This document shows positions 25,216-35,366 of a stretch of DNA of 64,000 bases, in pieces. Under the pieces are notes generated by a model. That model was given only the letters and a program-made list of their open reading frames with translations, did no database searches and was not told the DNA's origin. The position numbers and the translations under genes are program-made. Position 1 is the first letter of the stretch; the number at the start of each line of letters is the position of its first letter. Source of the stretch: Rahnella sp. AA (lineage in GTDB: Bacteria; Pseudomonadota; Gammaproteobacteria; Enterobacterales; Enterobacteriaceae); the NCBI RefSeq assembly GCF_002834385.1, contig NZ_PITQ01000001.1:372001-436000 (forward strand), in the 5' to 3' direction.

Positions 25216-26174
25216 GCCTGAATCCATTCGCTGCGGTGAGAAGCCACATCCTGTGCGCTGTATTGCAGGGATTTTGCCGGTACGGTCAGCTGTTTAAAGG
25301 CATCAGGCAGTGGCGTGCTGATCACCGGATACATCCAGTTACCGGTCGGGATGACTTTCTGGAAATCTTCGGTGGTGACGAATTTCATGAACTGTTCAGC
25401 CAGTTTTGGCTGTTTGCTGCTGGCCAGTTGGCCCGCGACTTCCACCTGCATGTAATGACCTTCGGTGAAGTCAGCGGCGGCATAATTGTCTTTCTTCTCT
25501 TCGACAATGTGATACGCCGGAGAAGTGGTGTAGCTCAGCACAAGATCGCTTTCGCCTTTGAGGAACAGGCCATAAGCCTCGCTCCAGCCTTTGGTGACGG
25601 TCACGGTTTTCGCCGCCAGTTTTTGCCACGCTTCAGGCGCTTTGTCGCCATAGACTTTTTGCATCCACAGCATCAGGCCGAGACCCGGCGTGCTGGTGCG
25701 CGGATCTTCGTAAATCACTTTCCATTTCTGGTCGCTGTTGATCAGCTCATCAAGGCTTTTTGGCGGGTTTTTCAGTTTGTTTTTGTCATACACGAACGCG
25801 AAATAACCGTAGTCGTAAGGCACAAACGTCGTGTTATTCCAGCCACCCGGCACCGTCAGTTTAGCGTCGGTTTTCGGCGCTTTGGCAAACAGACCGGTTT
25901 GCTCAGCGGCCTGCAACAGGTTGTTATCCAGACCGAGCACCACGTCCGCTTTAGTGTTTTTGCCTTCCATCCGCAGACGGTTCAGCAGCGACACGCCATC
26001 TTCCAGCGCGACATATTTCAGTTCGCAGCCGCACTGTGCCTCAAAGGCTTTTTTGATGGCCGGGCCGGGGCCCCAGTCGGCCGAGAAGGAATCGTAGGTA
26101 TAAACCGTCAGAACGGGCTTTGCAGCAAAGGCAGGTGCAGAAAGTAACAGCAGGCAGGACAATAATTTTTTCAA
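25191..26174 (-). CDS. thiB: Periplasmic thiamine-binding protein
   Basis: The 327-residue protein equals E. coli ThiB (TbpA) in length when translation starts at the TTG at 26174. That TTG follows GGAG by 7 bases and begins a signal peptide, KKLLSCLLLLSAPAFA, cleaved before KPVLTVYTYDSF. No ATG is available near this point, and the next open start upstream (a TTG at 26234) lies at the riboswitch edge. ThiB delivers thiamine, TMP and TPP to ThiPQ. Conserved stretches include SADWGPGPAIKKAFEAQCGC and LSYTTSPAYHIVEEKKD. Expression should fall when TPP is abundant, through the leader aptamer. Confidence 0.94.
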   Translation of the reverse strand: MKKLLSCLLLLSAPAFAAKPVLTVYTYDSFSADWGPGPAIKKAFEAQCGCELKYVALEDGVSLLNRLRMEGKNTKADVVLGLDNNLLQAAEQTGLFAKAPKTDAKLTVPGGWNNTTFVPYDYGYFAFVYDKNKLKNPPKSLDELINSDQKWKVIYEDPRTSTPGLGLMLWMQKVYGDKAPEAWQKLAAKTVTVTKGWSEAYGLFLKGESDLVLSYTTSPAYHIVEEKKDNYAAADFTEGHYMQVEVAGQLASSKQPKLAEQFMKFVTTEDFQKVIPTGNWMYPVISTPLPDAFKQLTVPAKSLQYSAQDVASHRSEWIQAWQNAVSR

Positions 26175-26228
26175 CTTTGCGCTCCAAAAAAGAAAAGGGG
26201 CAAAGGATTTTGAGTGAGCATTGCACAG

Positions 26229-26469
26229 TCTCAAATCCCTCCGCCGGGGTTAACCGGATCAGGTTCGACGGGTATCAGGTCTCAGCCATATTTAAACGTG
26301 CTGCGCGTGTGTTGATCGGGCGTCGTGCAGTGCTCGAAATGCTCACGTACTTTGTGTACGCTCCGCTTTCTGTGCGCTGGACTTCACCCGCTGAACACGC
26401 GCTCGCGGCGTTTAAAAATCGAGGTCATTCTTTATTACAAAAGAAGTCACTCGGGCACCCCGTTGAGAA
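26229..26469 (-). ncRNA. TPP riboswitch (THI element) in the thiB leader, with an enlarged P3 arm
   Basis: On the minus strand, P1 is formed by TTCTCAAC (26462-26469) and GATTTGAGA (26229-26237). Core motifs follow in the right order: GGGGTG, then GGCTGAGA, ATACCCGTCGAACCTGATC, CCGGTTAACCCCGG and AGGGA. Apart from P3 this matches the E. coli thiB leader (SroA) almost base for base. P3 normally takes a few tens of bases; here the segment between GGGGTGCC and GGCTGAGA is about 160 bases and contains a palindromic element. Downstream, GGATTTGAG of P1 can pair instead with CTCAAAATCC (26205-26214 on the minus strand), and CTTTGC (26200-26205) with GCAAAG (26175-26180) right before the TTG, so control is probably at translation start. 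Confidence 0.9.
26288..26419. repeat. Palindromic repeat inserted in the P3 arm of the TPP riboswitch
   Basis: The element has terminal inverted repeats: TTTAAACG (26291-26298) matches CGTTTAAA (26409-26416), extendable to 11 bp with one mismatch. A second inverted pair lies inside: GCGCGTGTGTT (26303-26313) against AACACGCGC (26394-26402). At the middle is a small perfect hairpin, CGTAC-TTTGT-GTACG (26346-26360). It has no coding capacity. The form resembles a MITE-like or ERIC-like mobile palindrome. I have the impression that a GAGCGTAC...GTACGTGAGC core recurs in related genomes but cannot verify it. No second copy was noticed in this window. Confidence 0.7.
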
Positions 26470-26477
26470 CGGATGTC

Positions 26478-26483
26478 ATTCTA
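26478..26483 (-). promoter_or_regulatory. Candidate -10 of the thiBPQ promoter
   Basis: TAGAAT on the minus strand is placed so that transcription would start about base 26471, right at the 5' strand of riboswitch P1. No good -35 is visible at 16-18 bp. Confidence 0.4.
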
Positions 26484-26512
26484 GTGATTAACGGTGCAAT
26501 GCGATAGTCCGA

Positions 26513-28177
26513 TTAGCTGTCGGGTGGCGCGAACCAGGCAGATTTGAAGTCGAACCAGCCGAGAGTGTTCATCCGCACGCCGCGCATGCTGCGTTGCCCC
26601 TGCAAAACCAGCCAGTGGTGGAACAGGGGATGGATATGATGGGTGGCTACCTGTTTCTCGCCCCATTTTGCTATCGGGAGCTCGCCGTCGTGCCATAACG
26701 TGGCATCTTCTGCAAGGTCATAGCCGAAGCAATGCGCCGTGAGCGGCAATTCAAAGAACGTGGCAAACAGGGAGAATTCCAGCGGTAACGTGAAGTTTGC
26801 GCTACCAAGCCACAGATCGCTTTGGGCATCGCCACGGTGCCAGACGGCGTAATCCACAATCTGAATAATCAGCTCGATCCCTTCCGCAGCCAGTATTGGC
26901 CGCAGCGCGTTACAGATTGCGTGATGTTCGGAATGTTCGCTATAAAACGTCAGGGTAATCTGCGTCAGATTCTCGGGTTTCGCAGGACGTGTTTGAAGAT
27001 TTTTGTGATGCCAGCGGGGTAACAGGCCGTATGCCGGTGACCAGTAGCGCTGATAGATTGGCTCGGCGGCATTCAGTAAGGCAATCGGACTGAGTAAATC
27101 ACATAACCATGCCCGTATTTCACTGTTCTGACCGATGGCCGAACGCTGGTCGAACAGCAGGAAGTAGCAGCCTTCCTCAAGGCGGCTTTCCAGCTCACTT
27201 TTACCTGATTCATCGGCCTGAAGTTGCACACCGGAATGCACCAGTTCCTCGCTGAGTTCAGGGAAAACCCAGATGTTGACCTCATCGATCAGCGCCCGGA
27301 ATCCAAAATATTCGTCGAACGCGCGGATCCGCAGCTGCGTTTTCTGATTTCGCACCACGGCATACGGGCCGGTTCCCACCGGATGGCGGGCAAAATCGGG
27401 CAATGACTCCCACTCCTGCGGCAGGATCATGGCGTGGATATTCCCGAACAACCAGGCCAACCAGCGATCGGGCGCGTTCAGATGAATGTCGATGACGTTG
27501 GGCGTCGGCGATGCAACCGACGCAAGATTGCTGAACAGCCGGTGTGATTGCATCAGGCGTGTGAAGGTGGCGATGATATCCGCCATCTCCAGCTCACGGC
27601 CATGATGAAAATGAATGGCCGGGCGCAGATAAAACCGCCAGTGCAGCGGAGATATTTCCTGCCAGTGATGGGCTAAATCGCCTTCGACTTCCCCATTTTC
27701 CTCATTTATGCGCGTCAGCCCGCTGAAAATCTGTCGCGCTATGTGTGTTTCTGAACGCCGCAACATCGTTCCCGGTAGCAGATTAAACAGCGGACGATAG
27801 TACAACACGCGCAGGATATGTTTGCCCTGACGGAAGCTTCGCCCCAACTGGGATAACAGCATCTGGCGAACGCTGCTTTTATCACCCACCAGTTGCACTA
27901 ACTGATCGATATTATCCTGTTCAAGCAGTTCTTCGGCCCGCTGTTGCTGGAGTGCCAGGCCGGTATAAAGGAAACTCAGCGTCGAACGTTTACCGCGCCC
28001 GGCTTCGGCGTCCCACGTCAGCCACCCCTGTTCCTGCATGGTGCTAAGCAATGATCGCATATGTCGCCGGGAACAATTCAGTACTTGCGATAACGCCTGC
28101 AGCGTCGTCTCTGTTTCTTCACCGTGGCAGGATTGCCATAACCGGATGAATTGTTGCTGTAAGCGGGATGAAGCCAT
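26513..28177 (-). CDS. sgrR: SgrR, transcriptional activator of sgrS
   Basis: The 554-residue regulator (about 551 in E. coli) has an N-terminal winged-helix DNA-binding domain ([20 protein letters not shown], about residues 33-52). A large C-terminal domain related to periplasmic solute-binding proteins follows (SBP_bac_5; [19 protein letters not shown] near residue 187), thought to sense a glucose-phosphate-stress metabolite. In E. coli SgrR activates the divergently transcribed sgrS and represses itself. Here sgrS starts about 80 bp away on the other strand, so the same arrangement holds. GGAG precedes the ATG. thiB follows on the same strand after the riboswitch. Confidence 0.95.
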
Positions 28178-34689: not shown

Positions 34690-34720
34690 TAAAAAAAAAC
34701 CCGCGCATCGGCGCGGGTTT
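34690..34720 (-). terminator. Leucine operon attenuator terminator
   Basis: On the minus strand CCCGCGC pairs with GCGCGGG around a 4-base loop, extended by A/T pairs and followed by a run of nine T. It lies 20 bp after the leuL stop and 43 bp before leuA, the expected place for the attenuator. Confidence 0.88.
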
Positions 34721-34740
34721 ATTGTCTGTGGAAGTTGAAA

Positions 34741-34824
34741 TCAGTTCTGATTTTCGCCCACTGGCTTACCGCGCAAATTTTCTGCGTTGAGTAGTAGGCC
34801 TAGGAGACGGGTAATCATGAACAT
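34741..34824 (-). CDS. leuL: leu operon leader peptide
   Basis: The 27-residue peptide MFMITRLLGLLLNAENLRGK... contains five leucines in six positions. They use CTC CTA, Gly, CTA CTA CTC, so three of the five are the rare CTA codon. Stalling at these codons when charged leucyl-tRNA is scarce lets an antiterminator form and leuABCD be transcribed. The start could be the ATG at 34824 or the one at 34818; both keep the leucine run. It corresponds to E. coli LeuL (28 residues with four consecutive leucines). Confidence 0.92.
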   Translation of the reverse strand: MFMITRLLGLLLNAENLRGKPVGENQN

Positions 34825-35366
34825 GTTTTCAGCTTCTCATAATCGGGTGGTCAGAACGGATGTCGTTCAAACAGTGCCTAAAGTGATACGGGAATGTCCT
34901 TTGTATGTCAACCTTCGTTGTGTGGAAATCGCGAAAAACCTAGCAAATGATATTTTGTCTCATTTAGCATAAAAAACTGGATGTTGATGTCTGTGAGTCG
35001 TAAATGTTTTACATAAAATGACGTGCAATGGAACTATAAACAAAAAGAACGGCATGGATTTGAAAATTATCTAAAAATAAAGCTTGTATTACAATGGATT
35101 AAAAATGATTTACTTCTGGTTAATTTATTATTCATTTTTTGAATATTGTTTGAAAAACCATTTTATAGTCTTATATCATCAGTTTTTTAGCGGTTACTAG
35201 AGAGTGCATTACAGTTTCTGATTATAAGAATGAATGCTTTTTTTGGAAAGAAAAAGGATTATTAAAAAATAGCTTTCCTGATTTATTTTTATGATCTGAT
35301 ATTGTTTCGTCTTTTATAACTAAATCAATTAATAATATTCTTCTCAAATGGGAAGGCTATTCTTTG
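34825..35366. other. 542-bp AT-rich spacer between leuL and leuO
   Basis: Apart from the leu promoter at 34883-34911, no gene or clear site was found. From about 34960 to 35360 the sequence is strikingly AT-rich, with many A and T runs, unlike the surrounding genes. In E. coli and Salmonella this same spacer is bound and silenced by H-NS and relieved by LeuO, so the composition suggests the same here. Confidence 0.6.
34883..34911 (-). promoter_or_regulatory. leuLABCD promoter
   Basis: On the minus strand a perfect TTGACA (34906-34911) and TATCAC (34883-34888) are 17 bp apart, with transcription start expected near 34876, about 50 bases before leuL. Confidence 0.8.

Follow-up and report, generated by a model that had tools for sequence, protein, structure and literature searches.

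In fungal TPP riboswitches the P3 arm averages about 150 nt and reaches 172 nt in one example, in contrast to the short P3 of bacteria, and the long arm often defeats the Rfam model (accessible part of PMC11683625). In the pneumococcal trp leader a BOX repeat is situated between two T-box riboswitches and transcribed with them, the riboswitches being thought functional (PMC3049150, accessible sections). YPAL/RU-2 elements are described, in the available portion of PMC2229807, as inserting in or next to regions of dyad symmetry, and BoxC/TMECO repeats are defined, in the part of PMC4666352 at hand, by a CCCTCNCCC...GGGNGAGGG triplex pattern. As far as the accessible parts of these sources go, the BOX/T-box arrangement comes closest, among the precedents found, to riboswitch RNA that carries a mobile repeat. 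The literature covered, to which older subscription surveys do not belong, yielded no report of an aptamer arm with a repeat inside it, and a search of paper texts for words of the core sequence described below gave no match dealing with repeats by its title.

Here, a thiB leader of Rahnella sp. AA is described; it carries a TPP riboswitch in which a dispersed palindromic repeat makes up P3. Positions refer to the window, the whole stretch of 64,000 nucleotides that was analysed, and the genome shares its genus with R. laticis and further named species of Rahnella.

The thiB leader of the Rahnella window

Two open reading frames on the minus strand, which we take to be sgrR and thiB, enclose the leader (Table 1); the list of open reading frames gives thiB with an earlier TTG start than the one at 26174. 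Among 135 thiB-bearing loci, a number that counts duplicates, 126 had a match to the C-terminal 240 residues of SgrR. The leader displays the conserved aptamer motifs and the P1 and P2 complementarity of the TPP riboswitch (RF00059). A first-pass annotation of this DNA had stated that motifs and P1 are intact on both sides of about 160 extra bases in P3; the located motifs agree with this, and the extra sequence was counted as 166 nt.

Table 1. Features of the thiB leader and its surroundings in the window.
Feature	Position	Strand	Basis or remark
TPP riboswitch aptamer of thiB with extended P3	26230..26467	-	Motif positions; Rfam RF00059
P1, 5' side CTCAA / 3' side TTGAG	26467-26463 / 26234-26230	-	Motif positions
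CTCAACGGGGTGCC	26467-26454	-	Aptamer motif
GGCTGAGA	26287-26280	-	Aptamer motif
ACCCGTCGAACCTG	26273-26260	-	Aptamer motif
Extra P3 sequence, 166 nt, from GGGGTGCC (ends 26454) to GGCTGAGA (starts 26287)	26288..26453	-	
Palindromic element, sX9-like family, thiB type, TTTTTAAACG...CGTTTAAA	26291..26418	-	
Core common to dispersed copies in the window genome and others	26327..26379	-	
Apical hairpin GTAC-ACAAA-GTAC	26347..26359	-	Read from sequence; predicted fold
Auxiliary hairpin CGAG...CTCG, 5' half of P3	26420..26453	-	Predicted folds
Anti-P1 sequence CTCAAAATCC, complementary to P1 3' side	26205..26214	-	
Putative Shine-Dalgarno sequestor CTTTGC.../GCAAAG around GGAG	26168..26205	-	-7.8 kcal/mol
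thiB (presumed), thiamine-binding protein, TTG start, 327 aa	25191..26174	-	Open reading frame and homologues
sgrR (presumed), upstream of the thiB leader	26513..28177	-	Open reading frame

An Rfam scan of the window at the gathering threshold reported no TPP riboswitch. The riboswitch is missed because RF00059 scores only 40.2 bits (span 26317-26219) against a gathering score of 54.3, which is a detection threshold and not a biological criterion, and because the 5' half of the model is aligned onto palindrome sequence. Two further TPP riboswitches of the same Rahnella genome score above the cut-off. The minus-strand fold, which the first-pass annotation had proposed together with this Rfam comparison, gave a z-score of -3.95 for the 240-nt leader, with none of 200 shuffled sequences being equally stable.

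Downstream of the aptamer, the anti-P1 sequence is predicted to form an alternative hairpin (26247-26196, -21.3 kcal/mol). A CTCA...CCTTTG anti-P1 sequence is present in all 16 long-P3 leaders of named species and in 71 of the 79 leaders overall. The putative sequestor hairpin further downstream would hide the Shine-Dalgarno site, and, going by what is established for TPP riboswitches, translation is expected to be repressed when TPP is high.

From 26550 to 23050, identity to R. laticis (L034) is 76-88% over sgrR, 91-99% over the riboswitch, thiB and thiP, and then lower again, so that the 91-99% stretch has the appearance of a recombined block with its upstream end just before the riboswitch. 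A leucine operon leader is situated at 34693-34838 (minus strand; RF00512, 89 bits).

Anatomy and folding of the P3 element

The base of the palindrome is formed by the outer pair TTTAAACG/CGTTTAAA, which, like the apical hairpin, was read from the sequence and is paired in the predicted fold. The inner pair GCGCGTGT/ACACGCGC is complementary at eight out of eight positions and is the sole inverted pair listed by the repeat finder. This corresponds to the outer and inner inverted repeats around a central hairpin that had been noticed in the first-pass annotation; the CGAG...CTCG hairpin is separate and lies outside the interval assigned to the repeat there (26288-26419). At thiB the element is about 120 bp long, compared with 113-115 bp in dispersed copies.

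An alignment of 25 out of 28 P3 arms (A1; omitted were L009 with a cut shifted by 16 bases, the near duplicate L153, and L015 with an unaligned left arm) gives a 38-pair imperfect hairpin as consensus. In A1, 97.6% of the cells are paired, rising to 100% in the apical helix (helix 8), 17 of the 38 pairs show double changes, and the covariation score is 0.352, compared with 0.128 after shuffling and at most 0.055 in slid controls. This shows a maintained hairpin. By itself it is not proof of selection inside the riboswitch, since the sequences are related, the dispersed copies also keep pairing and covary, and the two most divergent arms, those of genome G033 and of Y. similis (L087, which is not among the 28), lie outside A1. 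Compared as a possible sign of selection at the RNA level, counts of G-U and A-C pairs are 69 and 12 in the thiB set and 66 and 22 in dispersed copies, both sets consisting of related sequences with one near-fixed G-U pair.

Enforcing P1, P2 and the two basal pairs of P3 next to them, with P4 and P5 left free, the aptamer-constrained fold cost 1.4-3.0 kcal/mol relative to the minimum for 13 of 15 long-P3 leaders (2.7 kcal/mol in the window), the exceptions being Y. alsatica (4.7 kcal/mol) and Y. similis (8.9 kcal/mol). For four short-P3 leaders the cost was 1.4-2.3 kcal/mol, a range shared by ten of the 15 long-P3 leaders and exceeded by the other five. Together with the consensus and its covariation, these folds favour the suggestion of the first-pass annotation that the insert extends P3; it is predicted to do so as a self-contained hairpin. 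At the gathering threshold Rfam recognised only four of 16 insert-bearing leaders (15 with long P3 and one with ERIC in P3a), all of them from Yersinia, and missed twelve; the low scores follow the length of the insert, all four short-P3 leaders being recognised.

Dispersed copies and family identity

A genome-wide search for 26288-26419, as suggested in the first-pass annotation, retrieved the repeat in part: two copies elsewhere in the window genome match over the core (89% over 52 nt at C3:85899; 77% over 56 nt at C11:1064504), and the whole 130 bp was not found elsewhere in it. Core matches were found in 5216 of 5426 E. coli genomes, at one to six places per genome with any match (median 4). 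Among the 15 matches listed, these cover 49% of the 132-nt query, no place reaching 80%; an example in K-12 sits in the pyrH-frr spacer, where nothing is annotated. The core is also present outside thiB in 11 of 14 genomes of one comparison set, one Erwinia unit shares 94% identity over 62 nt with a second site in its own genome, and three core-only matches are located on plasmids.

The dispersed copies are uniform, measuring 113-115 bp in 35 of 40; the other five were dropped because their ends could not be placed. For the pairing analysis, 18 of 55 dispersed candidates were dropped as poor core matches or as fragments in thiB leaders. Among 20 loci with dispersed copies, Rfam at gathering listed four matches, none of them a riboswitch.

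One genome (G244) carries a core copy in the spacer that separates 16S from 23S rRNA, where it lies between a tRNA and 23S rRNA (C1:2784883; L159, 1501-1561); a second core copy of this genome is at C1:3569605. In G033, three tandem core copies with a spacing of about 98 bp are found outside thiB (L185, C1:2396743-2396996), which indicates that the repeat forms arrays elsewhere too. The P3 cores of R. ecdela and H. psychrotolerans (L012, L042) have a linked, compensated CCA/TGG in place of AAA/TTT; dispersed copies show this variant too, which points to sequence exchange among members of the repeat family.

By sequence, the P3 element resembles Rfam sX9 (RF02228) on the opposite strand, and the similarity is beyond chance. 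The sX9 consensus scores 48.5 on the window element, 68.0 on the P3 of H. alvei and 56.0 on a dispersed copy, the respective maxima of 300 letter shuffles being 39.0, 38.0 and 33.5. The antisense strand exceeds the sX9 gathering score of 44 in H. alvei (48.0 bits) and likewise passes it in Y. aleksiciae. With the RF02228 model, no match was obtained in window positions 26150-26520 at E<=1 or across the window genome at E<=0.001; among nine genomes searched, four gave any match at E<=0.001 and one passed the cut-off.

Other repeats were rejected as the source of the element. ERIC scores 41, a value reached by 10 of 300 shuffles, and the element is not a copy of it; the shuffle control is borderline (the score is reached by 10 of 300 shuffles for the window element and by 5 of 300 each for the H. 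alvei P3 and a dispersed copy), which leaves a remote relation to ERIC open. YPAL/RU-2 also scores 41, reached by 33 of 300 shuffles, and the score of RU-3 was reached by 214 of 300 (comparison sequences from PMC2759123, Table 1b). The BoxC/TMECO pattern is absent from both strands with up to three substitutions allowed.

Intergenic repeats of E. coli were reportedly surveyed by Bachellier in 1999 and by Rudd in 1999, and the family may already have a name in such older surveys. The thiB type could be a separate subfamily, judging from outer arms that differ from those of most dispersed copies.

Distribution of the element at thiB

P3 lengths were determined in named-species thiB loci, namely the 80 out of 144 whose ThiB is most similar to that of Rahnella, a choice biased to near relatives. 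Counted from GGGGTGC to GCTGAGA, which gives 168 nt for the window, P3 measures at most 57 nt in 63 and at least 144 nt in 16 of the 79 parsable leaders, with none in between. The smooth variation of P3 length that the first-pass annotation had named as a sign of ordinary growth is thus not what is seen. Outside this set, P3 is 115 nt in G033 and 133 nt in G291; the element-bearing leaders that were read range from 115 to 524 nt. Within Rahnella, the long form occurs in 11 of 14 genomes and a 43-nt form in three (ten long and two short by pattern matching, G012 as long and G008 as short by direct reading).

Using one Erwinia unit (121 positions) as query against three overlapping sets of 14, 391 and 37 genomes, near full-length thiB-type matches were obtained in 24 distinct genomes of Rahnella, Hafnia, Yersinia, Erwinia and other genera, all of them in the P3 of the thiB riboswitch (G065 was placed there via its locus L077). 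Matches outside thiB are confined to query positions 27-98, and no full-length thiB-type match outside thiB was found in the three sets, with two candidates per genome scored in the set of 391. In this set of family genomes, 15 gave a near full-length match at E<=1e-12 with the two best candidates scored, a procedure that rarer full-length copies elsewhere could escape and that leaves Yersinia-like copies below the threshold.

In Erwinia, Hafnia, Yersinia and Rahnella the element has the same orientation and the same right junction, CGTTT or AGTTT, which closely precedes GCTGAGA. A single old insertion, followed by exchange and loss, explains this better than many separate insertions. On a tree of ThiB and SgrR the distribution is patchy, with Pantoea, Mixta and the six Serratia included lacking the element, so that several gains or exchanges may also have taken place. 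A true empty thiB site with a clean target duplication was not found among the leaders compared; we therefore infer insertion from membership in the dispersed family. In E. aphidicola (L084), which groups with the tandem-array Erwinia, the sgrR-thiB spacer contains a short thiB leader with no recognisable TPP riboswitch.

Tandem growth and shrinkage

The longest P3, 524 nt, contains four tandem units of about 119 bp (G211); the only other searched genome of that genus has one unit. In the genus of E. rhapontici, full-length matches were obtained in six of 37 genomes (E<=1e-9), three with two tandem units and a P3 of 284-289 nt (G385, G450, G462) and three with one unit and a P3 of 150-192 nt (G434, G437, G438). 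Inspected by eye, several of these six have a right-half fragment to the left. E. persicina has only the right half of the element.

The P3 of R. perminowiae displays two AGCAAG repeats, 100 nt apart, which flank its variable part; they could be read as the target duplication of a MITE, but a deletion explains them equally well. If its flanks are joined at AGCAAG, the 43-nt short Rahnella P3 results except for single-base differences, so that the short forms probably arose through deletion by slippage on the palindrome. The first-pass annotation had looked to relatives for insert-free leaders. Short P3 arms are the majority among the named leaders. The short Rahnella forms keep both element ends; they resemble the outcome of a deletion more than a site never entered, and were not accepted as pre-insertion sites.

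Possible insertion into hairpins, and ERIC in Serratia riboswitches

The flanks of dispersed copies are inverted repeats. Over 35 copies, 4.63 of eight flanking positions are paired (G-U allowed), compared with 3.11 after swapping of flanks (0 of 2000 equally high). Taking one copy per flank cluster gives 4.58 of eight versus 3.02 (19 clusters, 0 of 5000 shuffles). The termini are complementary in 17 of the 19 clusters, which is partly built in, as the end motifs contain the terminal bases; the outside flanks are unaffected. Inverted-repeat flanks indicate a family that tends to sit inside hairpins, the P3 stem-loop being such a site, and suggest insertion into hairpins such as P3.

A full-length ERIC element is found at P3a, between GCTGAGA and AACCCGTCG, in S. 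proteamaculans CCUG 14510, Serratia PL17 and S. quinivorans. All 127 consensus positions are aligned, 100-101 of 128 columns are identical, and the scores of 155.5-159 compare with a shuffle maximum of 53. The same position holds three bases in S. proteamaculans UME734 and S. grimesii. As judged from these alignments, Serratia provides the clearest comparison with and without a repeat and shows a second repeat family in the thiB riboswitch, independent of the P3 element.

Discussion

We consider it probable that the P3 stem-loop of the thiB riboswitch was the target of an old insertion by a dispersed palindromic repeat related to sX9, and that the repeat was subsequently inherited, exchanged, duplicated and trimmed, with TPP switching expected to be kept. 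The insertion would have occurred in an ancestor of Erwinia-, Hafnia-, Yersinia- and Rahnella-like bacteria, or the element would have been exchanged among them, and the habit of the family of sitting inside inverted repeats would make the P3 hairpin a natural target. Inheritance in place, trading by recombination, tandem duplication to up to four units and shortening by deletion between short direct repeats would have followed. The RNA of the element is predicted to fold on its own as an elongated P3, without engaging the TPP pocket or the expression platform, and the riboswitch would still be expected to repress thiB at high TPP. The proposal of the first-pass annotation, a mobile palindrome that landed in P3, holds with respect to a dispersed palindromic family; a recent or isolated landing does not fit the same place and orientation across genera.

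Independent insertions into P3 in the Erwinia, Hafnia, Yersinia and Rahnella lineages, by an element that targets the hairpin, would account for the patchy spread with short P3 in many intermediate lineages, and the flanks of dispersed copies as well as the entry of ERIC into the Serratia riboswitch are in line with them. We regard such parallel events as unlikely, because orientation and right junction are the same and the outer arms similar in all genera, whereas dispersed copies mostly have other arms, and because full-length thiB-type matches were restricted to thiB in the searches described above. Growth of P3 by point changes and small duplications, with an incidental likeness to dispersed repeats, could draw on the length tolerance of this arm and on the long P3 of fungi, which averages about 150 nt (PMC11683625, accessible part); it is highly improbable in view of the dispersed copies matching the core, in the window genome (C3:85899) as in Erwinia, and of the bimodal lengths.

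The insert might instead disrupt sensing in a decaying riboswitch and render thiB constitutive. The twelve leaders below the Rfam gathering score, the E. aphidicola leader and the poor fold of Y. similis could be read in this way, but the aptamer motifs are kept, the anti-P1 sequence is present in every long-P3 leader of named species, the P3 arm shows compensatory pairing and the low scores track insert length, so that decay appears quite unlikely. Slightly less credence still is given to a co-opted insert, tolerated in P3 and acting as an antisense sX9-like small RNA or as an RNase III or stability hairpin. Antisense strands above the sX9 gathering score in two species, an sX9 score of the window element above all 300 shuffles and the retention of the element in 24 genomes speak for it; against it stand the lack of an RF02228 match at E<=0.001 in the window genome and the fact that ordinary retention and recombination can explain persistence.

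With the old insertion as the preferred reading, thiB offers a natural series of TPP riboswitches whose P3 measures between 6 and 524 nt and which carry the repeat or lack it, sometimes within one genus, allowing P3 tolerance, co-transcriptional folding and switching to be tested on evolved sequences. The series suggests a possible source of long aptamer arms, and repeat-bearing riboswitches can be missed by standard annotation, as were 12 of the 16 insert-bearing leaders. For the dispersed family, of which sX9 is the one Rfam relative found, a preference for inverted-repeat flanks is added. More speculatively, and with considerable doubt on our part, stem-loop arms of bacterial riboswitches may be preferred landing sites of hairpin-targeting repeats, and long TPP P3 arms, including those of fungi, may be insertion fossils, some of which might have acquired another role, for instance as antisense RNA. 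If so, a length-tolerant aptamer arm would catch a repeat, keep it for long and let it multiply, as in the P3 with four units.

Comparison with known systems

Compared with RF00059, the leaders share the conserved motifs, P1, P2, GCTGAGA and GAACCTGATCCGG as well as the position upstream of thiB, and differ in a P3 of 115-524 nt in element-bearing leaders versus at most 57 nt in 63 of 79. Fungal TPP riboswitches have the long P3 and the failure of the Rfam model in common with them; the origin of the fungal arm is not given in the accessible part of PMC11683625, whereas the arm described here is a dispersed repeat, bacterial, and arranged in tandem units up to 524 nt. The sX9 consensus of Xanthomonas and the antisense strand of the element can be aligned over the core and one outer arm, but the Rfam entry describes a small RNA gene and not a palindromic repeat inside a riboswitch. 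ERIC (IRU, RU-1) is likewise an enterobacterial palindromic repeat of similar size (consensus 127 bp), on which the P3 element scores 41 and the Serratia copies 155.5-159. YPAL/RU-2 shares insertion at dyad symmetry and differs in sequence (PMC2229807, available portion). The BOX/T-box leader likewise holds a small mobile repeat within riboswitch RNA; there the repeat lies between two riboswitches, according to the accessible sections of PMC3049150, whereas the P3 element occupies an arm of a single aptamer, is found in many species and forms tandem units.
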